Origin: Cupriavidus pauculus
Lineage (GTDB): Bacteria > Pseudomonadota > Gammaproteobacteria > Burkholderiales > Burkholderiaceae
Direction of reading: 5' to 3'
DNA: 64,000 nt
Assembly: GCF_003854935.1 (NCBI RefSeq)
Contig: NZ_CP033969.1
Location: 2,914,001 to 2,978,000, forward strand
Shown: positions 34,135 to 49,435 of the stretch, one piece after another
Layout: every line of letters begins with the position of its first letter
How positions within the stretch are numbered: the stretch's first letter is position 1
Position numbers and translations under genes: made by a program
The notes under the pieces: generated by a model
What the model was told of the DNA's origin: nothing
Seen by the model: only the letters and a program-made list of their open reading frames with translations
The model's database searches: none

Positions 34135-35307
34135 ATGCGCAGAAAAGTCCTCGCCGTATTTGGGACCCGGCCTGAAGCCATCAAAATGGCGCCGCTGGTC
34201 CACCGCATCAAGGCTGCCAGTGATTTCGAGCTGCGAATCTGCGTGACGGGCCAGCACCGGCATATGTTGGACCAGGTGCTGCGGCTGTTTGACATCGTCC
34301 CCGATTTCGACCTGAACGTGATTACCCAGGGCCAGACACTGGCCGGCATTACCACGCGGGTCCTGAACGGGGTACACGAAGTGCTCGACAGATTCCAGCC
34401 CGAAGTCGTGCTGGTGCATGGCGATACCACGACAACCCTGGCCGCCACGTTCGCGTCGTTCTATCGAAACGTTGCGGTGGGCCATGTCGAAGCCGGCTTG
34501 CGCACGGGCGATCTGCGCGCGCCCTGGCCCGAGGAAATGAACCGCCGCGTCACGGACGTGATGGCGTCCTGGCACTTCGCGCCCACGCAGCAGGCCATGG
34601 ACACGCTGGTACGCGAAGGCGTGGATCCCGCCCGCATCCGCCTGACGGGCAACACGGGGATCGATGCGCTGCTGAACGTCAAGCAACGCCTGGAGGCCGA
34701 TGCCGAGATGCAGCGCAGCATGGCCGACCTGTATCCGTTTCTCGATCCCGACCGCAGCCTGATTCTGGTGACCGGTCATCGACGGGAAAACTTCGGCGCG
34801 CCTTTCGAGCGGCTCTTCACCGCGCTGCGCACACTGGTGGATCGCAATCCCGACATTCAGATCGTCTATCCCGTTCACCTGAATCCGCGCGTGCGCGAGC
34901 CGGTGCACGCCATCTTGTCCGGGCACCCCGATATCCATCTGATCGAGCCGCAGGAATACGTGCCATTTGTCTATCTGATGTCCCGCGCACGGCTGATCGT
35001 CACCGATTCCGGCGGGATTCAGGAGGAAGCCCCGGCATTGGGCAAGCCGGTGCTGGTCACCCGGGATACCACCGAGCGGCCGGAGGCCGTCGCGGCCGGC
35101 ACGGCGCGGCTGGTGGGCACTGATCCGGCTCGCCTGATCGCGGCAGCGGAACTGCTGCTGCACGATCCCGAGGAATACGCCTGCATGTCTCGCGCCCATA
35201 ACCCGTTCGGCGACGGGCGCGCGAGCGAACGCATCGTCCACGCGCTGCAAGGCAAGCGCGAGTTCAAGGCGGCAGGGATGGGGCAGCTGGCCGCTGTCGC
35301 GAGTTAG
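34135..35307 (+). CDS. wecB: UDP-N-acetylglucosamine 2-epimerase (non-hydrolysing)
   Basis: The protein has 390 residues and makes UDP-N-acetylmannosamine from UDP-GlcNAc. GGGAGAG before ATG 34135 decides the start; the frame runs upstream as a shadow. Family landmarks: [17 protein letters not shown] at the N-terminus, [51 protein letters not shown], and the nucleotide-binding C-terminal [18 protein letters not shown]. It heads a nine-gene operon with a processive glycosyltransferase and envelope proteins, which suggests that the polymer contains ManNAc or a derivative. No other ManNAc-modifying gene (for example wecC) is adjacent. Confidence 0.95.
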
Positions 35308-35379
35308 TAGCCGGTGGATCTGCCCGCGACGGGTATGCCCGACGCGCGCGCAGCACGCCGTCTTCGCAGGAGTACGGAT

Positions 35380-35748
35380 ATGAAACGCAGTGAAGGGAAA
35401 TCCCGTTGGATGCGGCCGGCAGTCGGCGTTGCCACGCTGCTCGCTATCGGCCTGTCTGCCGTCCCGGCTTCGGCCGCGACCTTGTCGTCAGAGGCGACCG
35501 CGGTGTCGGCGAACGCGCCGCTATATCTTCCGGCGAGCCCCAAGGACCCTGGCGGCCTCCTCGGTTATGACCACGACTATCAGATCGACCTGAACTACGA
35601 GGCGCACGACCACGGCCAGAACAAGAAGGACATGGACAAGCTGAAGACCAAGAAGCCGAAGAAGGCGGTGACCGGACCGAAGGTCAAGGCAGGCACCTAC
35701 ACCCTGGCCCCAGCGCCCGAGGCCGAAGTGGAGCCTGAAATCAAATGA
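35380..35748 (+). CDS. Small secreted Lys-rich protein of the exopolysaccharide operon
   Basis: The protein has 122 residues and no recognised family. ATG 35380 follows GCAGGAG. A signal peptide is evident (RPAVGVATLLAIGLSAVPASA, cleavage near SAA). The mature part has GLLGYDHDYQIDLNYEAHDH, then a strongly basic section KKDMDKLKTKKPKKAVTGPKV, then an acidic tail PAPEAEVEPEIK. The lack of regular hydrophobic pattern suggests disorder; the basic segment could bind an anionic polymer or partner. Its stop overlaps a possible ATG of the next gene (ATGA). Confidence 0.65.
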   Translation: MKRSEGKSRWMRPAVGVATLLAIGLSAVPASAATLSSEATAVSANAPLYLPASPKDPGGLLGYDHDYQIDLNYEAHDHGQNKKDMDKLKTKKPKKAVTGPKVKAGTYTLAPAPEAEVEPEIK

Positions 35749-35819
35749 ACCGGCGTCTGCGGCAGGACACGCCATGTGCGCCTGCTGTCCGTCCCGCAAT
35801 CTTCCGCTGGGAGAAGGCC

Positions 35820-37646
35820 ATGCCCTGCAAACCACAACTCATCTTTCGGCAATGCCGCGACTGGATCGTCCGGTTGCTGGCGACGCTCGCGCTTGCGCTG
35901 CCGACGATCGTTTTTGCCGCGACCAATCAGATTGGATTGCTGTTGCCCGATGGCTTTCCGTTGCCGGACCCGCGGGTGTCCGCCTGGCTCGACGCCGCCC
36001 AGGAAGAGGGCCTGAAAGTCACCGTCATCAACGACGCACAGGTCCAGCAGGGCATCACGACCGCCCAGTTCTCCGGCGTGATCCTGCCTGACCAGGTACA
36101 CGTGAATGCCAGCGACGCGCTGATTGCCGCGCTGGAAACCTACGCCAGCCAGGGCGGCAACCTGATGCTGGTCTACGATTTCGGCGCGCTGACGACCACC
36201 GGGTTCTATGCGTCGCCACGCAGTCGGCTCAGCAACCTGGCCGGCGTCGACTACGTGCTTTATGACCAGTTGCTCGGCAACATGATCGGACTGGGACCGA
36301 TCGTGGGCCTGAGCAGTACGTTACGTACCATCCAGGTCCCGCCGGGAAAGTCGATGGTCTGGACGGCGTCCAATTCGGACCCTGTCGAGGGGATTTCCGG
36401 ATACGTCTACGGCTTTCTCACGTATCCCAGCTTCGTGACGCAAGGCGCCTACACCGGCACGGCGCTGATGACATCGCCCAACTTCGGGCTCGTAGTCGGG
36501 CTGCGCAGCTTTGGCTCGGGTCGGGTGCTGTTCGTGAACACGCCGCTGTCCTATCTGAAGGGCCAGACCGACGGCATGCTGATGCACGGCCTGCTGCGGT
36601 ACTTCGGCGCCAACCTGATGAAAATGCCGCGGCTGTCGGCGCAACCCAAGGCGCTCGGCGGGCTGGTACTGAACATGCACTTCTGCGCGGGCGACCAGAT
36701 CGCGCCGGCCTACACGATGAAGAACTGGGGCGTGTTCAACAAGGGCCCGTTCTCGATCTCGATCACGGCCGGGCCGGACAAGATCGCCGTCGGCGACGCC
36801 AAGGGCATCAACCTGTCGCAGAACGCGAGTGCCCAGCAGCTTGTGCAGTACCTGGTGCTGAAAGGACACAAGGTAGGCAGCCATGGCGGATGGATGCATG
36901 ATTTCTGGGGCGCCAACGCCAGCGAGACCAATCAGTCGACGTTCGAGCAGTACCTGGTCATGAACCGGCAGAGCGTGGATGGCGTGACCGGCCAGGCGTC
37001 GAAGGGGTATGCCGCGCCAGAAGGCAATACGCCCAAATGGTCGGTCAACTGGCTCGAAGCCCAGGGCGCGAGCGCCTACTACTTCCTGGGACACACCGGC
37101 TTGGGGCCCACGCGCAGTTACCGCGATGGCACGCTCACGAACGAAGCCATCCGCGCCTTTCCGGTCATGCCGTTCGGCCAGAACGCCACCTTCGAAGAGT
37201 TCAGCGAGTTCAACGTCCCGGCCGCCGACATCACCGCCTGGTATCGCAAGCTGATCGACTTCGTGGCCCAGAACCGCACGGGGCGGCTGATCTACCTGCA
37301 TCCGCTTGGCGCGGTGGGCTACCAGTCGGTGCTCAACTCGATGTTCAACCGCGCCGCGACGCAAGCATCGAACGGCCGCTTCCGCTGGTACACGATGGAA
37401 GCGCTGGGCGATTTCAGCCAACGGCGTCAGCAAACGAGCTGGCAGGCCACGGACCTGGGCAATGCCTGGACGATCCAGGCAAGCCACCCTACCGACCTGA
37501 GCGACATGGCCTGGGTGCTTCCGCGCAACGCATACACCCAGCCCGTCATCACCCAGGGATTTGGCATTGTCACGTGGGACGGCAACAACTGGATCGTGAC
37601 GGCCGTCAGCGGCACATCGCTGACGTTTATCAGCGGCAAGCTGTAG
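35820..37646 (+). CDS. Secreted polysaccharide-deacetylase-like protein
   Basis: The protein has 608 residues from 35820, where GGGAGAAGG precedes the ATG; an in-frame ATG at 35745 overlapping the previous stop would add 25 residues. A signal peptide ends near residue 34 (TIVFAA). Residues about 37-265 form an alpha/beta domain (NQIGLLLPDGFPLPDPR, GGNLMLVYDFGALTT, FGSGRVLFVNTPLSY) like the glutamine-amidotransferase-type domains fused to some deacetylases. Residues about 280-540 look like a divergent NodB domain: CAGD (D292), SHGGWMH (H355, H360), YAAPEGN (397-403), then IYLHPLGAVGYQ. Motif 2 has one residue more between its His residues than usual. A role in N-deacetylating the polymer is inferred from position and motifs. 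Confidence 0.6.
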   Translation: MPCKPQLIFRQCRDWIVRLLATLALALPTIVFAATNQIGLLLPDGFPLPDPRVSAWLDAAQEEGLKVTVINDAQVQQGITTAQFSGVILPDQVHVNASDALIAALETYASQGGNLMLVYDFGALTTTGFYASPRSRLSNLAGVDYVLYDQLLGNMIGLGPIVGLSSTLRTIQVPPGKSMVWTASNSDPVEGISGYVYGFLTYPSFVTQGAYTGTALMTSPNFGLVVGLRSFGSGRVLFVNTPLSYLKGQTDGMLMHGLLRYFGANLMKMPRLSAQPKALGGLVLNMHFCAGDQIAPAYTMKNWGVFNKGPFSISITAGPDKIAVGDAKGINLSQNASAQQLVQYLVLKGHKVGSHGGWMHDFWGANASETNQSTFEQYLVMNRQSVDGVTGQASKGYAAPEGNTPKWSVNWLEAQGASAYYFLGHTGLGPTRSYRDGTLTNEAIRAFPVMPFGQNATFEEFSEFNVPAADITAWYRKLIDFVAQNRTGRLIYLHPLGAVGYQSVLNSMFNRAATQASNGRFRWYTMEALGDFSQRRQQTSWQATDLGNAWTIQASHPTDLSDMAWVLPRNAYTQPVITQGFGIVTWDGNNWIVTAVSGTSLTFISGKL

Positions 37647-37708
37647 TGCGCATGCCGGGTCCTCGCATCCGATGCGCGATGCGAGGACTCATCCAACCGG
37701 ACACCCTG

Positions 37709-39121
37709 ATGCGATTCAACAAGCCTGCAAGACTTCTCGCCGCCCGCTGGCCGCTGGCCTTGCTCGGCGTGGTCGTGGCGCTGCTGGCGCTGCCTGTGCA
37801 GGCGCTGGAACGCGTCGAGGGTGATAACGGACGCGCACTGGAGGTGGTCGAAGGGACGCCCGTCGCCGCCATCTTCCTGACCACCCTGCTGCTGCTGATC
37901 GTCGCGCTGGTGCTGCTGTATGCCGTACGGCACTACCTGTTCACGCTGAACCGCCTGTTCGGCCGGCAGCGCCACCCGTATCTGGATATCGATGTGGCCA
38001 CCTGGCCCACGCTGACCGTGCTGATCGCCGCGCACAACGAAGAGGCCGTTATCGCCGGCTCGCTGGAGTGCCTGTTGCATGCGGACTATCCCGCCGACCG
38101 CATCACCCTCATGCCGGTGAACGATCGCTCCACCGATCGGACGCAAGAGATCATCGATGACTATGTGGCGCGGTATCCAGGCCGCATCACGCCATTTCAC
38201 CGGGTCGGCGGCAAGCCGGGCAAGGCCGCCGCACTGAAGGATGCCAGCGCGCTGGTCACCGGCGAGATCGTCGTGGTGTTCGATGCCGACTACCTGCCCC
38301 CTGTCGGGCTGCTCAAGCAACTCGTGGCGCCGTTCTTCGATCCCGAGGTCGGCGCGACCATGGGCCGCGTCGTGCCGATGAATCTCGGCCGCAACCTGCT
38401 GACGCGCCTGCTGGACCTGGAGCGCTCGGGCGGCTATCAGGTCGACCAGCAAGCCCGGATGAACCTGAACCTCGTGCCGCAGTACGGCGGCACCGTCGGC
38501 GGCATTCGCATGCGCGCGCTGGGCAGCGCCGGCGGCTGGCATGACGACGTGCTGGCCGAAGACACGGACCTGACCTACCGGCTGCTGCTGGCGGAGTGGA
38601 AGACGGTCTACCAGAACTGGTCCGAGTGCTATGAAGAGGTGCCGGAAACCTGGCCGGTACGGGTGAGGCAGATCATGCGCTGGACCAAGGGCCATAACCA
38701 GGCGCTCTATCGCCATGGATGGCGCATGGCTTCGTGCCGGCACCACGGCATCATCGAAAGGATCGACGGCGTCGCGCTGCTGGGCATCTACATGATGGCG
38801 CCGCTGATGCTGCTCGGCTGGCTGCTCGCCATCCTGCTCTTCTACTCCGGCGGCCTGGCATTGCTGGGCACGGCCGTCATGCTGTTCGCGCTGATGTCGT
38901 ACGGCTCCCTGGGGAATTTCGCGGCCTTCTTCGAGATCGCGGCGGCCGTTCACCTGGATGGCAGCCGTGAGCGCATCCGGTTGCTGCCGCTGAACTACTT
39001 CGGGTTCCTGGTCAGCATGCTGAGCGTCTCGCGCGCGATCCTCGACCAGATCGTGGTCGATCACTTCCTCGGCCGCGAACTGCGCTGGGACAAGACCGCC
39101 CGCTATCGGCAGGGAGGCTGA
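37709..39121 (+). CDS. Processive family 2 glycosyltransferase (polysaccharide synthase)
   Basis: The protein has 470 residues from ATG 37709; in-frame ATGs at 37652 and 37679 are alternatives. Two N-terminal hydrophobic segments (about 10-33, 48-72) precede the GT2 domain: LTVLIAAHNEEAVIAGSL, NDRSTDRTQEI, VVVFDADYLPP (D192, D194), AEDTDLTYRL (E284, D285) and QIMRW (321-325), the D,D,D,QxxRW set of processive synthases such as PgaC, BcsA and NfrB. C-terminal membrane segments follow (about 350-372, 378-402, 425-445). No PilZ or MshEN c-di-GMP-binding domain is visible. With WecB in the operon, UDP-ManNAc or UDP-GlcNAc is the likely donor; that is inference. Confidence 0.88.
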   Translation: MRFNKPARLLAARWPLALLGVVVALLALPVQALERVEGDNGRALEVVEGTPVAAIFLTTLLLLIVALVLLYAVRHYLFTLNRLFGRQRHPYLDIDVATWPTLTVLIAAHNEEAVIAGSLECLLHADYPADRITLMPVNDRSTDRTQEIIDDYVARYPGRITPFHRVGGKPGKAAALKDASALVTGEIVVVFDADYLPPVGLLKQLVAPFFDPEVGATMGRVVPMNLGRNLLTRLLDLERSGGYQVDQQARMNLNLVPQYGGTVGGIRMRALGSAGGWHDDVLAEDTDLTYRLLLAEWKTVYQNWSECYEEVPETWPVRVRQIMRWTKGHNQALYRHGWRMASCRHHGIIERIDGVALLGIYMMAPLMLLGWLLAILLFYSGGLALLGTAVMLFALMSYGSLGNFAAFFEIAAAVHLDGSRERIRLLPLNYFGFLVSMLSVSRAILDQIVVDHFLGRELRWDKTARYRQGG

Positions 39122-39123
39122 CC

Positions 39124-40227
39124 ATGTGGCCCCTGCTGCTCGCAGGGCTCACCCTGCTGGTATTCACGCTGCCGCTGATGCCCGCGATCATCGAATGGCA
39201 ACGCCGCAGCGACATCCGCCCGCTGGCCATCGACCCCGACCACACACTCGACGTGGCCGCGGTTGCCGCCGAGTTCCGCGCCATGGTCACGCGCCTGAAG
39301 GACTTTCCGGCGCAGGCCGACATCGACGGCGCAACCACCTCGCTCGGTCCCATCTCGCACGTTAACGGCAGGTTCGCGCTCGACACCACGGACACCGGCG
39401 CCGGCCAGTGCCACCAGACGCTGGTGGCCAGCGACGTGCTCGCGCTGCCGGACAGTTATACGTTCACGAAGGCGATCTACGCCCACGATGGGCTTCTCAC
39501 AGGCCAGGACAACGTCCTCGAATCACTGATGTCCGATGGCGTGATCGTGCTGGGCCATGGCAGCGCCTTGCGCCGCTGGGCCCACGCGCGCTGCCTGAAG
39601 ATCGAACCAGAATGCAGCTTGCAAGGGCCTGTCTGCGCCCAGCACGCCATCCTTGTGAATGGCGATTGCTCGTTCACCTCGCTGCGAGCCCCCGTGATCC
39701 GTTTTGGCGGGCCCGCGCTTGCCACGGCCGACGACGGCGACGGTCCCGTTGATCCGGCGCCCCAGACGCATACGGATGCGGTCCAACCGCTCACCCCTGG
39801 CGACGCCCGTGACGGCCGCTGGTTCGTGACGCGCGACCTCACGCTGCCCCCCGGCGGCTCCTACGAGGGCGACCTGATCGTGCACGGCAGCCTGTGGATC
39901 GGCACGGGCACGCAGATCGTCGGAAGCGTCAAGGCCAGCGGCCGCATCACCGTGGCGCCACACGTACGCATCGACGGCGCATTGATTGCAGGCGGGGGCA
40001 TCGCGATCGGCGGATGTTCGCGCATTACCGGGCCGGTCGCGGGCGAGCGCGAGATCGAGGTCGGCCCAGATTGCGTGTTCGGCAGCCCGGCACGGCCCAC
40101 GACCGTCGTGGCATCGGTCCTGCGGGTGTATCCGGGCACGGTGGCCCACGGCTCGGTCTGTGCGCTTGAAGACGGTAGAGCCATCGCGCCCTGTGTACAA
40201 CCGCTGATAAACGAGCCCACACCATGA
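39124..40227 (+). CDS. Membrane-anchored bactofilin-like beta-helix protein
   Basis: The protein has 367 residues, starting two bases after the synthase stop. One N-terminal membrane helix (about residues 2-21, LLLAGLTLLVFTLPLMPAII) is followed by a soluble region with six Cys (for example GQCHQ, ARCLKIEPECS, GPVCAQHAIL, GDCSFTS). From about residue 235 short strands repeat every 6-7 residues: GSYEGDLIVHGSLWIGTGTQ, VGSVKASGRITVAPH, RIDGALIAGGGIAIG, as in polymer-forming bactofilins or right-handed beta-helices. In this operon it could be a scaffold beside the synthase or a periplasmic polymer-binding helix. Topology (Cys-rich, single N-terminal helix) favours the periplasm. Its stop overlaps the next start by four bases. 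Confidence 0.6.
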   Translation: MWPLLLAGLTLLVFTLPLMPAIIEWQRRSDIRPLAIDPDHTLDVAAVAAEFRAMVTRLKDFPAQADIDGATTSLGPISHVNGRFALDTTDTGAGQCHQTLVASDVLALPDSYTFTKAIYAHDGLLTGQDNVLESLMSDGVIVLGHGSALRRWAHARCLKIEPECSLQGPVCAQHAILVNGDCSFTSLRAPVIRFGGPALATADDGDGPVDPAPQTHTDAVQPLTPGDARDGRWFVTRDLTLPPGGSYEGDLIVHGSLWIGTGTQIVGSVKASGRITVAPHVRIDGALIAGGGIAIGGCSRITGPVAGEREIEVGPDCVFGSPARPTTVVASVLRVYPGTVAHGSVCALEDGRAIAPCVQPLINEPTP

Positions 40228-41234
40228 GGATATTGGCCAGCCTTCTCCTGCTTGCCGCCAGCTTGAGCCAGCCTTGCGCCCATGCGGCCGGCGCGGAGTT
40301 GACGCTACAGGGCTACCAGCGTGCGGACGGGGCCATCACCACCTACTTCAATGGCGATTCGGTCGACCCCTACTTTGCGTCCAAGGCACTGCTGGCCGCG
40401 CAGGATGCGGGCATCTCCACATCGACGACGGCGCAGCGCTGGATTGCCTGGCTGCTGCCGCGACAGCACCCGGATGGGCGCTTCGACAGGTATTGCATGA
40501 AGGGCCAGCAGATGACCAGTTGCCAGTTGGCCGACGCCGACGATGCGCTGATGGCGGCATGGATGGAGTTGCTGGTGCGTTCGGCGCCAAAGAGCGGCTT
40601 GCCCCCCGCGTGGCGCGCCAGCTTCGACAAGGCCAGCCAGCATCTGGAGACGCTTCGAAACCCGAAGACGCGCGTGTATCACATCTCCGCGTCGCTACCG
40701 GTAGCGCTGCTGATGGATAACGTGGAGGTCTCCAGTGCGTTCAAGGCGGTCGGCCGCTATCGCCAGAGCCAGGGCGACAACGCCGGAGCCGAGGCATGGA
40801 TGCGCAAGGCCGGGCAACTGGACCGCGACATCCTGAGCGTCTTCTGGCGCGGCGAGGAAGGCTACCTGGTGAGCACGCAGCAGCCCAATACCAATCAGTT
40901 CTACCCGGACGCCGTGGCCCAGATCTTCCCGATCCTTGCCGACATCCGGTCCGCCGGCCGCCCGCGCGCTGCCGACTACGGCCTGTGGATGCAGCAGCAC
41001 CGCATGACGTGGCTGGGCATGTCCGAAGTCGACTACCCGTGGGGACTGGTGGCACTCATCGCCGACAAGATGAACGACAAGGACGCGATTGCCTGCTGGC
41101 GGATGCGCTCGGTCCAGTTCCGCCATGGCAGCCACTGGAATGTCCTGGAGGAGGCGCTGTACGTCGCGTTCGAAAAACGCCTGACCCCGGACCAGGCGCT
41201 GGCGCCGCCGCCAGCCGGCTTGAAATGCCGTTGA
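40224..41234 (+). CDS. Periplasmic alpha/alpha-toroid protein, glycosidase-like
   Basis: The protein has 336 residues. A signal peptide ends near residue 21 (CAHAAGA). The mature protein is a series of paired helices: DPYFASKALLAAQDAG, TAQRWIAWLLPRQHPDG, LADADDALMAAWMELL, SFDKASQHLETLRNP, and DYPWGLVALIADKM, separated by turns with conserved-looking Asp/Glu (D-S-V-D-P-Y, D-A-D-D, E-V-D-Y-P). This resembles six-hairpin glycosidases such as family 8 enzymes that trim polymers inside cellulose-type operons. I cannot assign it to a named family. Its start overlaps the upstream stop (ATGA), so expression is coupled. Confidence 0.5.
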   Translation: MRILASLLLLAASLSQPCAHAAGAELTLQGYQRADGAITTYFNGDSVDPYFASKALLAAQDAGISTSTTAQRWIAWLLPRQHPDGRFDRYCMKGQQMTSCQLADADDALMAAWMELLVRSAPKSGLPPAWRASFDKASQHLETLRNPKTRVYHISASLPVALLMDNVEVSSAFKAVGRYRQSQGDNAGAEAWMRKAGQLDRDILSVFWRGEEGYLVSTQQPNTNQFYPDAVAQIFPILADIRSAGRPRAADYGLWMQQHRMTWLGMSEVDYPWGLVALIADKMNDKDAIACWRMRSVQFRHGSHWNVLEEALYVAFEKRLTPDQALAPPPAGLKCR

Positions 41235-41312
41235 AGGCGGCAGGCAGACGCTGGGCCCGAGGGTCCTGAAGCGACCCCTTGCTCTTGATCGATGGAAACG
41301 ACAGGAGAACGC

Positions 41313-42155
41313 ATGGAGAAGCCCGCTTGTCACACAGCCCGGTTCGCGCGGCCGCTGATTTGCGCGGGCGGCCTGCTTGCGCTGCTGATCGCTGCCGATG
41401 CCAGCGCCCAGGCCGAAGCCACGCCTCCCCGGACCTTCGTGCCCTTGCTGACCGGCTTCGTCGAAGGCGGCATCGGTCACGCCAACCTTACCGGTGACAA
41501 CGCCAACTGGAACGACCAGTACCTGCGCGGGGGCGTTCACCTGACGCCGAAGGACTACGTCACCGGCGAGATCAGCCACCAGAGCCATTTCGGGGACCAG
41601 GGCACCTTCTTTGGCCTGGGCTACACCCGCATCATCGATGACGACTGGTACGCGTTCCTGAGCGCGGGCACCAGCAGTGGCGGCTTCTTCCTGTCCGAAG
41701 TCCGCGTCGACGGCATGCTGTTCCGCAAGCTGCTGGAGAAGAAGAACCTCGTCGCCAGCGCCGGCTTTACCTACTACCGCGCGAAGGACGTCTATACCGA
41801 CAAGGCGCTGCTGCTTGGCCTGACCTACTACTTCGACGCGCCGTGGATCGTCCAGGTCGGCGCCCGGCTCAACCGCAGCGATCCGGGCAACGTGCGCTCC
41901 AACCGCGGCACCGTCGCGGTGACCTATGGCCGTGACAAGGACCAGTACATCACGCTGCGATACGACGGCGGACGTGAAGCCTACCAGCTCACTGGCGAGC
42001 AAACGGTGCTCAGCGACTTTACCAGCCACGAGGTTTCGCTGAACTGGCGAAAATGGTTCACCAAACGCTACGGCATCAACCTGCGCGCGGTGTACTACGA
42101 GAATCCGTCCTACAAGCGCAAGCAGGCAGAGATAGGGTTTTTCGTCGAGTTCTAG
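41313..42155 (+). CDS. YaiO-like outer-membrane beta-barrel protein
   Basis: The protein has 280 residues. AGGAGAACGC before ATG 41313 decides the start over an upstream ATG at 41292. A signal peptide ends at about residue 30 (DASAQA). The mature part is a run of amphipathic strands with aromatic girdles and polar turns (FVEGGIGHANLTGDNANWNDQ, YLRGGVHLTPKDYVTGEIS, GTFFGLGYTRIIDDDWYAFL) and ends in F (IGFFVEF), the usual C-terminal signal for outer-membrane insertion. It resembles the YaiO family, which in E. coli lies near a GT2 and a deacetylase gene. Here it is the likely outer-membrane component of polymer export. Confidence 0.78.
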   Translation: MEKPACHTARFARPLICAGGLLALLIAADASAQAEATPPRTFVPLLTGFVEGGIGHANLTGDNANWNDQYLRGGVHLTPKDYVTGEISHQSHFGDQGTFFGLGYTRIIDDDWYAFLSAGTSSGGFFLSEVRVDGMLFRKLLEKKNLVASAGFTYYRAKDVYTDKALLLGLTYYFDAPWIVQVGARLNRSDPGNVRSNRGTVAVTYGRDKDQYITLRYDGGREAYQLTGEQTVLSDFTSHEVSLNWRKWFTKRYGINLRAVYYENPSYKRKQAEIGFFVEF

Positions 42156-42157
42156 CC

Positions 42158-42958
42158 ATGAAAGACGATCGCGGCGAGCCGACCACTGCCTCGGACCCCG
42201 GCCGGGCGCTAGGGTTGCACACACTGTCTCTGGCCAGACACCGATCGCTCGATCGCCTGACGCTGTCTCCGTCGACAATGGTCGGCATCGTGCTGGTGCC
42301 CGCCCTGTTCAACGCGATCGAATGGCGTCTCAGGGGACAGTTGAGCGCCAACTGGGCCGGCGTGCTCGCTTTCTGGCTCGACAAGCTCGGCATCGAGGGC
42401 ACCACCGGCGAGCACAACGTGTCGTTCATCTGGTTCAACCTGCCCCTGCCCTACCTGGAAGTCGCGGCCGGGCCGCCTGATGCACGGACGTGGTGGACAA
42501 CGCTCATCGTCACCCTGCTGGCGTGCATACTCGCGCGGTATATCCGCGGCCGCTTTCTGCCGCTTCGGTACCTGCTGCTGTTCGCCATCTGCATCGAAGC
42601 CACGGCGCTGATGTACTTTGCCGTCGGCGAAAAGAACTTTCCGTACACGGTGAGCGGCTACGTCGACAACGGCGTCAAGACGTCCGCCGTCCTGCTGTTC
42701 GTGCTGCCCTGGGGGCACGCGCTCGTGTACTACATCTTCGATTTCTCGTGGTCGAGGAAGATTCTGCTGACCGTCCTGAGCATTGCGTTCGTCGTGGTGG
42801 CGGTCCCTCTTCAGATGGCGCTGCACGTCTATCTGCTGTCGCGCGGCTCGCTGATGATGATGCCGCTGTTATCGTTTGTATTCGGCCCGACGCTGATCAT
42901 ACTGGGCTGCATTGCCTTGTATGGCTGGGCGATGAGCTGGGAGCGAAACGTGCCGTGA
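42158..42958 (+). CDS. Polytopic inner-membrane protein of the exopolysaccharide operon
   Basis: The protein has 266 residues and no recognised family. It starts two bases after the barrel gene. After a 35-residue cytoplasmic arm, about seven hydrophobic segments are visible (42-60, 66-80, 108-125, 132-152, 166-185, 195-218, 228-255), with a polar loop LGIEGTTGEHNVSFIWFNLP between the second and third. No acyltransferase, flippase or nucleotide-binding motif was found. It overlaps the next gene by four bases (GTGA). It may be an accessory subunit of the synthase or a polymer-modifying membrane enzyme; this cannot be decided. Confidence 0.6.
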   Translation: MKDDRGEPTTASDPGRALGLHTLSLARHRSLDRLTLSPSTMVGIVLVPALFNAIEWRLRGQLSANWAGVLAFWLDKLGIEGTTGEHNVSFIWFNLPLPYLEVAAGPPDARTWWTTLIVTLLACILARYIRGRFLPLRYLLLFAICIEATALMYFAVGEKNFPYTVSGYVDNGVKTSAVLLFVLPWGHALVYYIFDFSWSRKILLTVLSIAFVVVAVPLQMALHVYLLSRGSLMMMPLLSFVFGPTLIILGCIALYGWAMSWERNVP

Positions 42959-43272
42959 ACCCGGACGCTGCGTCCATGGAACCGCCGAAGGTTCCCGCCG
43001 CCAGGGATCGCTTCCCCGGCAGGACGCTCTTTGCGCTGCTGGAGTCGATACGCTTCGGCGAGTACGAAGCCGAAGGAAGATGGGCGCCGACCATGGCCGC
43101 CGCCAAGGCCCTGACGCAGGACATCACGTCGGTGGATTCACGCGAGTACCGGTTCTTTTGCGTCGCGCCGGAGCATTCCGGGGGCTATCGGATCGTGCGC
43201 GTCGTACCGTGCTCAAACGCTGTGGGGCGCAACCACACGGTCAATGGCGTACACGTCCGCAGCGATGGCTGA
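42955..43272 (+). CDS. Hypothetical protein, last gene of the exopolysaccharide operon
   Basis: The protein has 105 residues from the GTG that overlaps the upstream stop (GTGA); an ATG at 42976 is an alternative. The sequence has FPGRTLFALLESIRFGEYEAEG, then SREYRFFCVAPEHSGGYRIVRVVPCS. No signal peptide or membrane helix; it looks like a small cytoplasmic alpha/beta protein. No family recognised. Coupling to the membrane-protein gene and codon use like its neighbours support real coding. No clear terminator follows in the 156 bases before the LysR gene. Confidence 0.5.
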   Translation: MNPDAASMEPPKVPAARDRFPGRTLFALLESIRFGEYEAEGRWAPTMAAAKALTQDITSVDSREYRFFCVAPEHSGGYRIVRVVPCSNAVGRNHTVNGVHVRSDG

Positions 43273-43428: not shown

Positions 43429-44364
43429 ATGCCCCGCCACAACCTTAACGATCTGCTCGCATTGGTCACTGTCGCGCGCGAGCGGAGCTTCACGCGCGCG
43501 GCGGCTCGCCTGGACGTCACGCAATCCGCGTTGAGCCACACCATCCGCAATCTGGAGGCAAGGCTGGGCGTGCGGCTGCTGACGCGCACCACGCGCAGTG
43601 TGTCGACGACCGATGCCGGCGAACGGCTGATCCGGTCCATCGGGCCCAAGTTCGATGAAATCGAAGCCGACCTCTCCGCTGTGGCCGAGCTTGGGGAGCG
43701 TCCGGCAGGCACGATTCGCATCACGTCCGTGGACCATCCAATCGATGCCATCATCTGGCCTCGCCTGGCCAAGGTTTTGCCGCAGTATCCGGACCTCAAC
43801 GTCGAGCTGACGGTGGACTATGGACTGACCAACATCGTCGGCGAGCGCTACGACATTGGCGTGCGGTTTGGCGACCAGATCGAGAAGGACATGATCGCCG
43901 TGCGCATCAGTCCCGACGTGAAGATGGCCATCGCGGCGTCTCCCGCCTATTTCAAGGGCCGCGACAAACCGATGGCACCGCGCGACCTGCTATCGCACCG
44001 CTGCATCAACCTGCGGCTCTCCACCAGCGGCGGACTCTACGCATGGGAACTGGCCAAGGGGTCCAAGAAGGTCCAGGCGCGCGTGGAAGGCCAGGTGGTC
44101 TGCAATAGCGTCAACCAGATGCTCAATGCCGCCCTCGACGGCTTCGGGCTGGTGTTCCTGCCGTTGCCGGTTATCCAGCCTTATGCGGACAAGGGAAAAC
44201 TGGTCAAGGTCATGGAGGACTGGTGCCCCACGTTCCCTGGTTATCACGCGTTCTATCCCAGCCGCAGGCAGTCGTCGCGGGCGCTCAAGATTGTGATAGA
44301 CGCCATCCGGCACAAGCCGGACGGCGTTGCCGCGACTAAGCCTGCGAAAGCTGGTCACGGATAG
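43429..44364 (+). CDS. LysR-family transcriptional regulator
   Basis: The protein has 311 residues. The N-terminal helix-turn-helix reads LNDLLALVTVARERSFTRAAARLDVTQSALSHTIRNLEARLGVRLLTR-like across residues 5-53. The effector domain follows from about 90 (GTIRITSVDHPIDAIIWPRL, YDIGVRFGDQIEKDMIAVRI, NQMLNAALDGFGLVFLP). This is the CrgA/DsdC-like subgroup that often controls adjacent oxidoreductases or efflux. It converges on iorB, overlapping its 3' end by 29 bases, and may act on the iorA/MFS intergenic palindromes. Confidence 0.92.
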   Translation: MPRHNLNDLLALVTVARERSFTRAAARLDVTQSALSHTIRNLEARLGVRLLTRTTRSVSTTDAGERLIRSIGPKFDEIEADLSAVAELGERPAGTIRITSVDHPIDAIIWPRLAKVLPQYPDLNVELTVDYGLTNIVGERYDIGVRFGDQIEKDMIAVRISPDVKMAIAASPAYFKGRDKPMAPRDLLSHRCINLRLSTSGGLYAWELAKGSKKVQARVEGQVVCNSVNQMLNAALDGFGLVFLPLPVIQPYADKGKLVKVMEDWCPTFPGYHAFYPSRRQSSRALKIVIDAIRHKPDGVAATKPAKAGHG

Positions 44365-46642
44365 GCAGCGACCGGATCCGTGTTCCCGTCGCCGCGAAGA
44401 TTGCATTGCAGAGTGCCGGCGCGATGGGCGGCACGGGCGGCTCGCCCACCCCGCCGGGTGGCACCGCAAAATCGCCGCCCACCATCCACGTATGGATGGC
44501 CCGTGGCGCCATATGCGACCGCAGGATCTCGAAGTCGTGGAAGTTGCTCTGCTGCACGCGGCCGTCCTTGAACGAGATCTCTCCCAGCATCGCCAGGCTG
44601 ATGCCCATCACGCAGCCGCCTTCCACCTGTGAACGGATACGCTCCGGGTTGACCTGCGGCCCGCAATCGATCGCCATGTCCACGCGCGGAATGGTGATCT
44701 GGCCCTTGGCATCCACCGCCACTTCCACCACGGTCGCCACATACGTCACAAAGCTGTAGGCCATGGCAATGCCAAGACCATGACCCTTGGGCAGCTTGCG
44801 GCCCCAGTTCGCCCGGCGCGCGGCTTCCTCGATGACGCGGCGCATGCGGCCGGTATCGAGCGGATACACGTCCGGCGATTCGTTGTAGTTCCAGCTATCC
44901 GACAGCGTCGCGGGATTGATCTTGCGCGGCGGGCCGATCAGCTCCAGCAGGTAATCCTTCGGATCGCGACGGGCCTGATGCGCCAGTTCGGCAACAAAGC
45001 TCTGTACCGCAAAGGCATGCGGGATGTTGGATACCGAGCGGAACCAGCCGATGCGCGTGTGCGCCGGCACATCGGCCGACTCCAGGCGGATCGACGGAAT
45101 CTGGAACGGGATGTTGATGGCCGACATCCCCGCTTCAAAGGGGGCCTTGCCCTCCGCGCCGACCTTGAACGTCGAGGTGATGGTGGGCGCCGCGGACCTG
45201 TGCAGCCACGCCGTGGGCTTGCCATTGGCATCCAGCACCGATTCCATGCGCTCGACCGAGACAGTGTGGAAATAGTCGTGGTGAATGTCGTCGTCGCGCG
45301 TCCATTGCAGCTTGACCGGCGTGCCGCCGATGGCCTTGGACACCAGCGCTGCCTCGGAAATGAAGTCGGCCATCGACTTGCGGCCGAAGCCGCCGCCCAG
45401 CAGTGTCAGATGCAGCGTCACGTCCCTGGCGTCGAGCCCGACGTGCTTCGCCACGCTTTCCAATGCCCCCTGAGGCGCCTGCGACGGCGCCCAGATCTCG
45501 CACTTTCCATCGACGAAGCGCGCCGTGGCCACGGGCGTTTCCATCGACGCATGCGCGAGGTGCGGAATGTAGTACTGGGCTGCTACCTTGCGCTGGCCAG
45601 CGGCTGCCGACAGGGCGGCCACGGCATCGCCATCGTTACGCAGCGGCTTGCCAGGCTGCTGCACGGCCGCTTCCAGGGTGCGGCGGAACACGGCGGAATC
45701 GTAGCTGGCGTTGGCGCCATGGTCCCATTCGAGCTTCAGCGCCGCCCTGCCCTGCATCGCCGCCCACGTGTTGGTCGCCACCACGGCAACCCCGCCCACC
45801 GGATTGAACAACGGCGGACCGTCATAGCCCTTCAGCTCGACGATGCGCAGGACACCCGGTACCTTCAGCGCGTCGGTGCCATCGACCTTGCGCAGCTTGC
45901 CGCCGAACACGGGCGGGCGCGCGATGACGGCGTAGACCATGCCCGGCAGCCGCACGTCGATACCGTAGGTGGCCTTGCCGCGCGCGATATCGCGGCTGTC
46001 GGCGGGCATGATCTTGCCCTTGCCGATATAGCGGAATGCATCCGGCTGCTTGAGGCGCAGTTGGTCTTGCTTCGGCACCGGCTGACGCATCGCGGCCTCG
46101 GCCAGTTCGCCATAGCCGATCCGCCGGCCGCTTGCCGCGTGAATGACTTCGTGGTTGCGCGCCTGCACTTCGGTGGCCGGCACTTTCCACTGCGCAGCGG
46201 CGGCGGCTTCGAGCATGTGCCGTGCCGATGCCCCCACACGACGCATCGGCGCCAGAAAATGCCGCATGCTGCGCGATCCGTCGACGTTCTGGCTGCCATA
46301 GCGGGCCTCGTTGGCGTCGGCCTGAACGATCCTGACGCGGCTCCAGTCGGCTTCCATTTCGTCGGCAACCACCATCGGCAGGCTGGTTCGCACGCCCGTG
46401 CCCATCTCCGCACGATGCGCCACGATGGTCACGGTGCCATCCCGCGCAATCGAGACGAATACCAGCGGGTTGTCCACGATGCCGCCTGGCATCGCTGCGC
46501 CGCCGTACTTCTTGTCAGCCTCCGCTGCGGCTGCCTTGGTAACCAGGCCGCCGAACTGGAGCGACAACGCGAACACCGCGCCCGCCTGCAGCAGACGGCG
46601 GCGCGCCGGTTGTTCGAGGGTGTCGAGGTCGGTGCGCGTCAT
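44336..46642 (-). CDS. Molybdopterin-dependent oxidoreductase large subunit (IorB type)
   Basis: The protein has 768 residues. It begins with a Tat-like signal (PARRRLLQAGAVFALSLQ), so it is probably exported folded. Xanthine-oxidase-family cofactor regions are visible: RAEMGTGVRTSLPMVVADEME, HASMETPVATARFVDG, GGGFGRKSMADFISEAALVSK, and near the end MAIDCGPQVNPERIRSQVEGG with GVGEPPVPPIAPALCNA. This is the isoquinoline 1-oxidoreductase/aldehyde dehydrogenase type, which hydroxylates heterocycles or oxidises aldehydes using water. Its ATG overlaps the stop of the Fe-S subunit gene. The substrate is unknown; no cytochrome or XdhC-like gene is adjacent. Confidence 0.88.
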   Translation of the reverse strand: MTRTDLDTLEQPARRRLLQAGAVFALSLQFGGLVTKAAAAEADKKYGGAAMPGGIVDNPLVFVSIARDGTVTIVAHRAEMGTGVRTSLPMVVADEMEADWSRVRIVQADANEARYGSQNVDGSRSMRHFLAPMRRVGASARHMLEAAAAAQWKVPATEVQARNHEVIHAASGRRIGYGELAEAAMRQPVPKQDQLRLKQPDAFRYIGKGKIMPADSRDIARGKATYGIDVRLPGMVYAVIARPPVFGGKLRKVDGTDALKVPGVLRIVELKGYDGPPLFNPVGGVAVVATNTWAAMQGRAALKLEWDHGANASYDSAVFRRTLEAAVQQPGKPLRNDGDAVAALSAAAGQRKVAAQYYIPHLAHASMETPVATARFVDGKCEIWAPSQAPQGALESVAKHVGLDARDVTLHLTLLGGGFGRKSMADFISEAALVSKAIGGTPVKLQWTRDDDIHHDYFHTVSVERMESVLDANGKPTAWLHRSAAPTITSTFKVGAEGKAPFEAGMSAINIPFQIPSIRLESADVPAHTRIGWFRSVSNIPHAFAVQSFVAELAHQARRDPKDYLLELIGPPRKINPATLSDSWNYNESPDVYPLDTGRMRRVIEEAARRANWGRKLPKGHGLGIAMAYSFVTYVATVVEVAVDAKGQITIPRVDMAIDCGPQVNPERIRSQVEGGCVMGISLAMLGEISFKDGRVQQSNFHDFEILRSHMAPRAIHTWMVGGDFAVPPGGVGEPPVPPIAPALCNAIFAATGTRIRSLPIRDQLSQA

Positions 46643-47121
46643 GCCTTGGCTCCCGTCTTGTTGGCCGCAAGGCGTGTCGACGCCAGCTTCACCGCCGCAT
46701 TGATGCGGTTGTAAGTGCCGCAGCGGCAGAGGTTGCCGCTCATTCCGGCGACGATCTGCTCGTCCGTGGGCTTGGGATTCGCTTTCAGCAGCGCAGTGGC
46801 GGTCATGATCTGCCCCGCCTGACAGTAGCCGCACTGGGCGACGCCCAGTTCGACCCATGCATCCTGGACGGCCCGGCCTACGCGATCCGATTCCATCGAT
46901 TCGATCGTGCGCACCTGCTTGGTGCCCACGGCGGAGATGGGCGTGACGCAGGAGCGGACCGGCTGGCCATCGACATGGACGGTGCAGGCGCCGCAAAGCG
47001 CCATGCCACAGCCAAACTTGGTGCCCGTGAAGCCCAGCGCATCGCGGAGCGTCCACAGGAGCGGGGTGTCGGACGACAGGTCGACCTCATGAGCCTGGCC
47101 GTTGATGTTTATCTTTGTCAT
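46639..47121 (-). CDS. [2Fe-2S] subunit of the molybdopterin oxidoreductase (IorA type)
   Basis: The protein has 160 residues. Two [2Fe-2S] clusters are evident: the plant-type cluster in FGCGMALCGACTVHVDG with the later Cys in RSCVTP, and the second in QCGYCQAGQIM and GNLCRCGTYNRI. It passes electrons from the molybdenum centre of the large subunit, whose start overlaps this stop (ATGA). It has no signal peptide of its own and may be exported with the Tat-bearing large subunit. It is divergent from an MFS pump gene across a 168-base region with paired palindromes. Confidence 0.93.
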   Translation of the reverse strand: MTKININGQAHEVDLSSDTPLLWTLRDALGFTGTKFGCGMALCGACTVHVDGQPVRSCVTPISAVGTKQVRTIESMESDRVGRAVQDAWVELGVAQCGYCQAGQIMTATALLKANPKPTDEQIVAGMSGNLCRCGTYNRINAAVKLASTRLAANKTGAKA

Positions 47122-48868: not shown

Positions 48869-49435
48869 ATGAGCGACCTGGACGACCTCACCGCCTGGGC
48901 CGGCGCCCTCCTCCACAACCTGGCCCCCAGCCAGCGCCGCACCCTCATGCGCGCTGCCGCGGCCGAGCTGCGCCGGCGCCAGACCCTGCGCATCGCCGCC
49001 CAGCGCAACCCCGACGGCACCCCCTACCAGCCACGCAAGCCGCGCCTGCGCGCGAAGGCAGGCAGCGTCCGCCGCAAGATGTTCGGAAAGCTGCGGACAG
49101 CGCGGTTCATGAAGACGCAGGCGGACGCCAACAGCGCAGCCGTGGAATTCGCCGCCAGCGTCAGACGAATCGCCGCGGTCCACCAGTTCGGCCTAAGGGA
49201 CCGGGTGAACCGCGGCGGGATGGTGGTGGAGTATGCGCAGCGGGAGCTGCTGGGACTGGCTGACGGGGATGTGGAGCGGCTGGGGGATTTGGTGGTGGGG
49301 TGGTGGGGGTGGTGGGGGGATAGGGCGGAGGGCCGTTTTCGACCCTTAGCGGTCCTTCACGTGCGGGCAATTTTGGGTACAGGCTCGCAGAGAATCGTGA
49401 TGCAAAAGTGCAGACGATCCGTCGAATCTGGATGA
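48869..49435 (+). CDS. P2 gpS-like tail completion (virion morphogenesis) protein, altered C-terminus
   Basis: The frame gives 188 residues beginning MSDLDDLTAWAGALLHNLAP. Features of the phage tail-completion family: RRTLMRAAAAELRRRQTLRIAAQRNPDGTPYQPRKPR (residues about 22-58), MFGKLRTARFMKTQAD, VEFAASVRRIAAVHQFGLRDRV, and VEYAQRELLGLADGDVERLGDLVVGWW. P2 gpS is about 150 residues; the last 40 here, after a G-run at about 49290-49320, look like read-through into unrelated sequence, so the 3' end is probably frayed. It likely has no function without the rest of the phage. Confidence 0.75.
   Translation: MSDLDDLTAWAGALLHNLAPSQRRTLMRAAAAELRRRQTLRIAAQRNPDGTPYQPRKPRLRAKAGSVRRKMFGKLRTARFMKTQADANSAAVEFAASVRRIAAVHQFGLRDRVNRGGMVVEYAQRELLGLADGDVERLGDLVVGWWGWWGDRAEGRFRPLAVLHVRAILGTGSQRIVMQKCRRSVESG

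Follow-up and report, generated by a model that had tools for sequence, protein, structure and literature searches.

Relation to described systems

A logic like the one proposed here operates in the NGR system of E. coli (NfrB-NfrA-WecB), in which a membrane GT2 is fed UDP-ManNAc by WecB. In PMC8669472, NfrA is described as a TPR protein with a 16-strand porin. Linkage of wecB in genomes that have no other copy is argued for NfrB in PMC8669469, and we observed the same for the operon studied here. PgaABCD combines a processive GT2 with hydrolase-type and deacetylase-type periplasmic partners and an outer-membrane barrel. The Bcs cellulose synthase pairs its GT2 with a toroid protein, BcsZ of family GH8. 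In the K-12 yaiO-yaiX-yaiP-yaiS cluster, a barrel named YaiO adjoins a GT2. Rubrivivax psc1 was ruled out as the same system by its gene content, which in PMC3684757 includes several glycosyltransferases of group 1 alongside genes for polysaccharide export, FemAB and PEP-CTERM.

We analysed a window of 64,000 nucleotides from Cupriavidus pauculus (contig NZ_CP033969.1, positions 2,914,001 to 2,978,000), which holds an operon of eight genes (Table 1). Judged by the libraries and papers searched, these genes are likely to encode an unnamed machine for synthase-dependent exopolysaccharide synthesis and export. From the encoded families, the polymer is most likely built of ManNAc, and GT2, TM8, the bactofilin-like protein and YaiO would form the core of the system.

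Table 1. Features of the operon in the Cupriavidus window (positions in the window)
Feature	Position	Strand	Description	Evidence or remark
wecB	34135..35307	+	non-hydrolysing UDP-GlcNAc 2-epimerase, product UDP-ManNAc	TIGR00236 497.7 bits (cut-off 210)
gene 2	35380..35748	+	small secreted protein	alternative GTG start 35314
gene 3	35745..37646	+	secreted, flavodoxin-like and NodB-like, "deacetylase-like"	PF01522, PF08532, motif table
gene 4	37652..39121	+	membrane GT2 synthase	PF13641 7.3e-26
gene 5	39124..40227	+	N-terminal membrane helix and bactofilin-like beta-helix domain	PF04519
gene 6	40224..41234	+	secreted toroid protein of (alpha/alpha) type, probably a glycoside hydrolase	weak family matches, invariant acidic residues
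gene 7	41292..42155	+	YaiO outer-membrane beta-barrel	TIGR04390 8.9e-61
gene 8 (TM8)	42158..42958	+	polytopic membrane protein, no known family	found in 32/32 loci
short ORF after operon (gene 9 of the first-pass annotation)	42976..43272	+	outside conserved set	one relative, L028

A first-pass annotation had called the combination of WecB, a D, D, D, QxxRW GT2, a deacetylase-like protein, a toroid protein and YaiO unrecognised. All five components are present, the toroid match being weak, and neither the family models nor the literature matches listed gave a described system of this kind; papers beyond the searched collection could be missed. Genes 2, 3, 5, 6 and 8 and the GT2 gene matched no NCBIfam model at its cut-off. 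As had also been noted, there is no PgaA-type TPR porin and no PgaB among the operon genes.

We asked whether the operon is a divergent version of Pga, cellulose or NfrAB/NGR, which share its synthase type and, for NGR, its dependence on WecB. This is very unlikely. In contrast to NGR, the operon genes examined include no MshEN domain and no NfrA-type TPR/16-strand porin; instead there are a bactofilin-like protein, YaiO, TM8 and often a toroid protein, and the YaiO domain, at ~230 residues, is far smaller than NfrA as described in PMC8669472. The window GT2 did not match NfrB at E up to 0.01, nor was an NfrB match found in its own genome, in a search run without a positive control. Unlike PgaABCD, the operon lacks PgaA and has an epimerase, its GT2 being only 28% identical over 250 aa; profile comparison gave no match between gene 3 and PgaB. 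Unlike Bcs, it shows no PilZ, BcsB or BcsC match, and the toroid protein did not match BcsZ by profile comparison. In the GT2 tree the operon GT2s formed one group (support 92/93), not close to NfrB; the four K-12 rows sit on very long branches, and the tree carries a long-branch warning on their account. The suggested likeness to the yai cluster dissolved into little beyond common family names: no wecB or bactofilin is annotated in that cluster, YaiP is 31% identical over 99 aa, and the operon YaiO profile does not recognise K-12 YaiO (E = 0.49).

Gene packing and conservation of the operon

The genes are tightly packed on one strand, as first described, with overlaps of 1-4 bases and gaps of 2-72 bases read off the sequence. 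Genes 2/3 and 5/6 overlap by 4-base ATGA motifs, genes 4/5 and 7/8 are separated by 2 bases, and genes 6/7 by 57 bases. Genes 3/4 overlap by 1 base if the GT2 starts at GTG 37646 and are 5 bases apart if it starts at ATG 37652; later ATGs are also options, and the searches took the frame from 37643. The gap between wecB and gene 2 is 6 or 72 bases, depending on the start chosen for gene 2. A promoter scan found no sigma-70-type site, with 1.7 expected by chance.

In the synteny check proposed in the first-pass annotation, eight of the nine genes formed one set, whose core recurred from Burkholderiales to Escherichia (32 loci). GT2, the bactofilin-like protein, YaiO and TM8 co-occurred in 32/32 loci in profile searches, with profiles partly built from the loci counted; L117-L120 are independent. 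The same searches placed wecB in 31 loci (in L031 and L035 as a split copy), the toroid protein in 29 and the deacetylase-like protein in 23, and gene 2 was present in 16, once as a fused copy. Left out of the 32 were L024, whose contig ends within gene 5, the duplicates L020, L022 and L023 (of L030, L034 and L035) and L064 (of L028), and L042 and L027, which have a gene-3 homologue without the operon. Gene orders were shuffled between the loci. Because the same genes lie together in 32 loci, their grouping exceeds chance. Bactofilin, YaiO and TM8 were also present in all eight loci that were found via GT2 alone (L063, L066-L068, L117-L120). Among 399 genomes of the order, TM8 occurred in 7, the genome of the window included, and in all of them wecB, GT2, the bactofilin-like gene, the toroid gene and yaiO adjoin. 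Relatives of the operon were found in Burkholderiales and at gammaproteobacterial loci; among 5426 E. coli genomes, 3 carry one. Viral contigs gave a single GT2 match (27%), and phage records gave none at E up to 1e-40.

A hydrolase-like toroid protein and a small outer-membrane barrel would also suit a locus for glycan uptake or degradation instead of synthesis. We regard this as the least probable reading, as the membrane GT2 and the epimerase are among the genes best conserved in sequence, with GT2 found at every one of the 32 loci. Gene families, linkage and motifs support the synthase-dependent logic that had been proposed.

The GT2 synthase

The window GT2 carries the motifs NDRSTD, DAD, EDTD and QIMRW, and the processive D, D, D, QxxRW signature was invariant in the nine GT2 members aligned. 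Hydropathy segments flank the GT domain on both sides. Operon copies were 53-88% identical to the window GT2. Of four K-12 GT2s compared, PgaC was the closest. The window GT2 scored below the cut-offs of the PgaC/IcaA model TIGR03937 (104.3 bits, cut-off 422) and the BcsA model TIGR03030 (47.7 bits, cut-off 699). The domain search returned neither MshEN nor PilZ, and the absence of a c-di-GMP-binding domain from the synthase, as claimed earlier, held in that no known such domain matched. c-di-GMP may bind at a subunit interface.

WecB and the supply of UDP-ManNAc

The window WecB shares 59.8% identity with its E. coli K-12 counterpart but 39.5-41.7% with three other operon WecBs, from loci whose GT2s are 53.7-65.9% identical to the window GT2. 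Four distant operon WecBs also passed the TIGR00236 cut-off (210 bits). From these sequences, the operon WecBs appear to derive from more than one lineage and the GT2 from one family; a single origin of the operon WecBs may also be compatible with the starred branches of the WecB tree, from which L095, L100, L096 and L102 (no sequence passed the motif filter) and L094, L088 and L098 were left out. All 15 operon-bearing genomes checked had a WecB match. In G025, G042, G400, G1046 and G992, every WecB match (E up to 1e-20) lay inside the operon. G998, with an operon that lacks wecB, had two matches elsewhere in the genome. In G013 the sole match was the operon copy, split over two frames; unless a sequencing error accounts for the split, G013 would be without functional WecB. 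Since all WecBs of five genomes lie in the operon, and WecB lineages appear mixed whereas the GT2 is of a single family, a supply of UDP-ManNAc seems to be required by the system. The earlier claim of such a supply was supported. In three loci glmS either adjoins the operon or lies no more than 1 kb away, which would also fit the ManNAc reading.

The same machine might instead make something other than a ManNAc homopolymer, with the GT2 using GlcNAc or another sugar and WecB tuning the UDP-HexNAc pool or providing a minor residue. We consider this improbable. In its favour, the WecB reaction is reversible, according to PMC8669469; PgaC is the nearest of the four K-12 GT2s compared; the glmS linkage suits any amino-sugar polymer; and wecB is split in G013 and L035. 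However, the epimerase gene is nearly universal at the loci and has seemingly been swapped between lineages, not lost, and in five genomes it is found nowhere but in the operon. The contribution of wecB could also be limited to a minor residue or side chain. The set in L068 is directly followed by two further genes, one of GT family 4 and one for a deacetylase, the latter frameshifted; other sugars are therefore possible at that locus.

Gene 5, YaiO and TM8

Gene 5 has a single hydrophobic segment at residues 5-23. Its PF04519 match in the window was below the cut-off of 27.9 (3.3e-4, 21.3 bits), and the L063 copy was above it (31.0 bits). At E up to 0.1 the family matched all eight aligned members, with a best value of 2.5e-8. 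Weaker matches of hexapeptide type were LbH_EIF2B at 8.1e-5 (L059), Hexapep at 0.051 (L063) and Arch_glmU at 0.0084 (window). These would fit a left-handed beta-helix enzyme that adds acyl groups to the precursor or the chain, in which case gene 5 would not be a scaffold. We think this doubtful given the PF04519 matches and the Escherichia set, which has its own separate acyltransferase in place of the deacetylase-like protein.

The window YaiO scored 205.8 bits against TIGR04390 (cut-off 32). At the strict limit of 1e-20 no NCBIfam model matched the YaiO of one Escherichia operon, L066, although its record names it so. None of 9 TM8 members matched a Pfam family above cut-off, and a profile search of the PDB gave no match.

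Periplasmic candidates

NodB/CE4 deacetylases carry an Asp pair (DD) in motif 1 and a His pair in motif 2. In the window, gene 3 matched PF01522 slightly below the cut-off of 23.1 (9.5e-5, 22.8 bits); among ten members, at E up to 0.1, PF01522 was matched by nine and PF08532 by five. Its flavodoxin-like and NodB-like regions are reminiscent of Aspergillus Agd3 and Pseudomonas PelA, two exopolysaccharide deacetylases of NodB type. In contrast to these, the motif-1 Asp pair is replaced by Cys-Ala in the window protein; the motif-2 His pair is present as HGGWxH, with different spacing. The PDB profile search gave no significant match (best E = 0.26). Of the "deacetylase-like" secreted protein described at first, the family likeness stood, but the motif-1 Asp pair is lost, and the enzyme is probably catalytically altered. 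Gene 3 is missing from 9/32 loci, and from the entire genome of G138. Gene 2 stands as a separate gene only in Cupriavidus type-A loci, and its motif PASPxDPGGLxGYDH also occurs within some gene-3 homologues.

Among nine members of gene 6, the matches to TED, trehalase, MGH1 and rhamnosidase families were weak, the best being PF22422 (2.3e-7, in one member). D104, D107, D165, E168 and E310 were invariant over 11 members. The three loci that lack the toroid protein also lack it in their whole genomes.

A model for the machine

In the model we propose, WecB would convert UDP-GlcNAc to UDP-ManNAc, and the single membrane GT2 would polymerise it and move the chain across the inner membrane. TM8 would be the membrane partner of the GT2, and the membrane-anchored bactofilin-like protein would cluster or scaffold it. 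In the periplasm, the chain would be trimmed by the toroid protein and modified or bound by the deacetylase-like protein together with gene 2; in Escherichia, the acyltransferase would replace the deacetylase-like protein. YaiO would anchor the chain at the outer membrane or release it. The roles of YaiO, TM8 and the bactofilin-like protein are those that we infer. The chances are about even that this is a new class of machine in which an invariant core of GT2, TM8, anchored bactofilin and small YaiO produces a ManNAc polymer with no TPR porin, the synthase is placed by a scaffold of cytoskeletal type, YaiO is the cognate exit at the outer membrane, and islands and plasmids carry the genes between Burkholderiales and Enterobacteriaceae.

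The model gives YaiO-type barrels and the nameless TM8 family a testable function and suggests that a bactofilin-like scaffold may be integral to a polysaccharide synthase. PMC8669469 and PMC8669472 propose ManNAc polymers as a type of glycan that serves as phage receptor, and compact gene sets, some of them in E. coli, would be useful for their study.

The reading frame downstream of gene 8

The operon was first described as having nine genes. The operon itself was borne out by the co-conservation of eight, but the ninth was not: the frame 42490-43272 mostly shadows gene 8, and the ORF 42976-43272 was ruled out as a member by its single relative among 23 loci searched. This relative, in the megaplasmid copy of Cupriavidus sp. 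P-10 (L028), is 51% identical over 73 aa. Alignment of the two gave 41/88 identical residues, with differences at codon positions 27/31/50, and from this comparison the ORF may be a genuine small gene.

Conservation of the operon as a unit

The operon genes were counted by profile in 32 loci with full neighbourhoods, made up of the window, 14 loci matched by gene 3, three named Cupriavidus loci, six loci matched by TM8 (our name for the polytopic membrane protein of gene 8), four GT2 matches from the class-wide sample, and four Escherichia loci. The GT2 synthase, the bactofilin-like protein, YaiO and TM8 were each present in 32/32, and this invariant set is an unusual feature of the system. 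wecB was found in 31 loci (split in two of these), the toroid gene in 29 and the deacetylase-like gene 3 in 23; gene 2 was present in 16, with one copy lying inside gene 3. Gene order was wecB-deacetylase-GT2-bactofilin-toroid-YaiO-TM8 in the Cupriavidus type-A loci and one gammaproteobacterial-class genome (L117), wecB-GT2-bactofilin-toroid-deacetylase-YaiO-TM8 in L039-L041, L059 and L060, wecB-YaiO-TM8-GT2-bactofilin in two class-wide GT2 matches (L119, L120), and bactofilin-wecB-YaiO-TM8-acyltransferase-toroid-GT2 in Escherichia. That content is kept while order shuffles across families speaks for a working unit.

The first-pass annotation had proposed nine genes. Eight lie together on the plus strand, coding in order for WecB, a small secreted protein (gene 2), a secreted deacetylase-like protein (gene 3), the GT2 (gene 4), the bactofilin-like membrane protein (gene 5), a secreted toroid protein (gene 6), YaiO (gene 7) and TM8 (gene 8). 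The ninth is largely a shadow frame of TM8. The short ORF that follows had a relative in 1/23 loci searched, next to an operon copy (L028) in Cupriavidus sp. P-10. Flanking genes, judged by eye among the matches listed, vary from locus to locus; in the window, a prophage or remnant may start near the Phage_tail_S gene.

Genes of the window and related genes elsewhere
Feature	Sequence	Position	Strand	Remark
Eight-gene operon	window	34135-42958	+	neighbours overlap by at most 4 bases or lie 2 to 72 bases apart
UvrA-like gene	window	upstream of operon		divergent
Short ORF	window	42976-43272		mild coding signal
LysR regulator	window	43429-44364		downstream of operon
Molybdopterin-binding oxidoreductase (molybdenum hydroxylase-like) gene	window	44336-47056	-	beside LysR regulator
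Phage_tail_S (phage virion morphogenesis) gene	window	48869-49435		~6 kb past operon
Second epimerase	window's genome, outside window	G000:C2:1646612-1647691		227.7 bits, barely above WecB cut-off
Gene-3 homologue	L042	9022-11043		outside operon; gene-2 motif inserted
Gene-3 homologue	L027	9749-12106		outside operon; gene-2 motif inserted
Second gene-3 homologue	L061	15285-17555		divergently transcribed; flanks operon
Second toroid-like gene	L061	5936-7168		weak; flanks operon

Relation to known synthase-dependent systems

The window GT2 carries the motifs NDRSTD, DAD, EDTD and QIMRW, whose key positions do not vary across nine members; its hydropathy segments span residues 37-55, 74-92 and 374-412 (frame from 37643). 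With an epimerase, a membrane synthase, periplasmic modifiers and an outer-membrane barrel all present, as the first-pass annotation had recognised, the operon appears to work like synthase-dependent systems. No TPR porin occurs among its genes, a second unusual feature, which bears out the earlier remark that a PgaA-type porin is absent.

Over 250 aligned residues the window GT2 shared 28% identity with PgaC; the figures for BcsA and YaiP were 23% (361 residues) and 31% (99 residues). It gave no match to NfrB; the GT2 of the Escherichia operon matched NfrB at 25.7%. Tests of membership in the Pga, cellulose (Bcs) and NfrAB systems were negative, and sequence comparison lent no support to close kinship with the K-12 yai cluster, to which a resemblance had been noted initially. 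No description of such an operon was found in the open-access library searched, among the matches listed.

WecB and the predicted sugar

WecB produces UDP-ManNAc, an activity established for its family. A WecB match was present in 15/15 operon-bearing genomes counted, and in five of them (G025, G042, G400, G1046 and G992) all matches lay inside the operon. One genome (G998) has an operon without wecB and two WecB matches elsewhere. In another (G013) the sole match is the operon copy, split over two frames; unless this is a sequencing error, it counts as contrary evidence. Split wecB genes, reflecting decay or sequencing error, were seen in two Cupriavidus genomes (L031 and L035; also L023, a duplicate of L035). 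From the same overall WecB pattern, the authors of the NfrB study argued that UDP-ManNAc is the NfrB substrate (PMC8669469).

The window WecB was 59.8% identical to K-12 WecB, but its identity to the operon WecB was 39.5% for L058, 41.7% for L061 and 39.8% for E. coli NCTC8623. The GT2s of the three loci, by contrast, were respectively 65.9, 57.6 and 53.7% identical to that of the window. Thus, the epimerase was probably exchanged between lineages while its function stayed. In the WecB tree, the L061, L058 and Escherichia copies grouped together (support 100/99), and the label 'operon' needed three changes (two to four over bootstraps); the well supported branches of this tree, which carries a long-branch warning, are compatible with a single origin of operon WecBs. 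No other entry in the tree was more than 29% identical to the second epimerase of the window's genome.

glmS, the gene for the first step towards UDP-GlcNAc, lies beside the operon or within 1 kb in at least three loci, namely L062, L031 and L037 (in the last only a partial frame); it does not adjoin the operon in the window. Since the window's operon has one GT2 and no other transferase, we infer a homopolymer, probably of ManNAc, as the simplest reading.

Accessory proteins

The gene 3 protein combines a flavodoxin-like and a NodB-like region. At motif 1 the L042 homologue has DD, most other relatives have DA or DS, and the window clade and L062 have CA. All 13 aligned sequences retain the histidines of motif 2 and the histidine of motif 5. 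Because of the CA, deacetylation by the window protein is doubtful. In L042, L027 and L062 the gene-3 homologue itself contains the gene 2 motif, which makes it probable that the two products act together.

Gene 5 encodes a single N-terminal helix and a beta-helix domain, with a bactofilin match in 8/8 members; for the window's own member the score does not reach the cut-off. Gene 6 probably encodes a hydrolase, given weak matches to toroid enzymes and the invariance of D104, D107, D165, E168 and E310 in 11 members. No outer-membrane barrel except YaiO was recognised in every one of the 32 loci, and we propose YaiO as the exit or anchor. TM8 had no named relative in profile and structure-database searches; its Escherichia counterpart was recognised by profile comparison (84% probability) and HMM (4.5e-10).

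Distribution and mobility

Counting the window's own genome (6.18 Mb, 4 contigs) each time, gene 3 was found in 13/60 close-neighbourhood genomes and 11/36 of the genus (two copies in G025, three in G007), TM8 in 7/399 of the order (E <=1e-5), GT2 in 5/369 of the class, and gene 3 (E <=1e-20) and GT2 (E <=1e-90) each in 4/398 of the phylum sample. At least 3 of 5426 complete E. coli genomes carry the Escherichia GT2 gene by DNA similarity, a method that would miss remoter copies. Of 72,556 plasmid records, two matched at E <=1e-80; one is a conjugative plasmid of E. fergusonii and the other the megaplasmid of Cupriavidus sp. P-10. None of 50,697 phage records matched at E <=1e-40. In two of the E. 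coli loci (L066, L067) a TraI-domain gene and an integrase come after the GT2 gene, and tRNA-Phe adjoins in L066. Judging from these counts and this context, the operon is rare and patchy and is carried on mobile elements in Escherichia.

Regulators of the FaeA/PapI family and genes of the DsbA family occur several kb or less from the Escherichia operons of L063, L066 and L068, a hint of phase-variable control of these versions. In L068 the operon set is followed by a GT family 4 gene and by a deacetylase gene with a frameshift.
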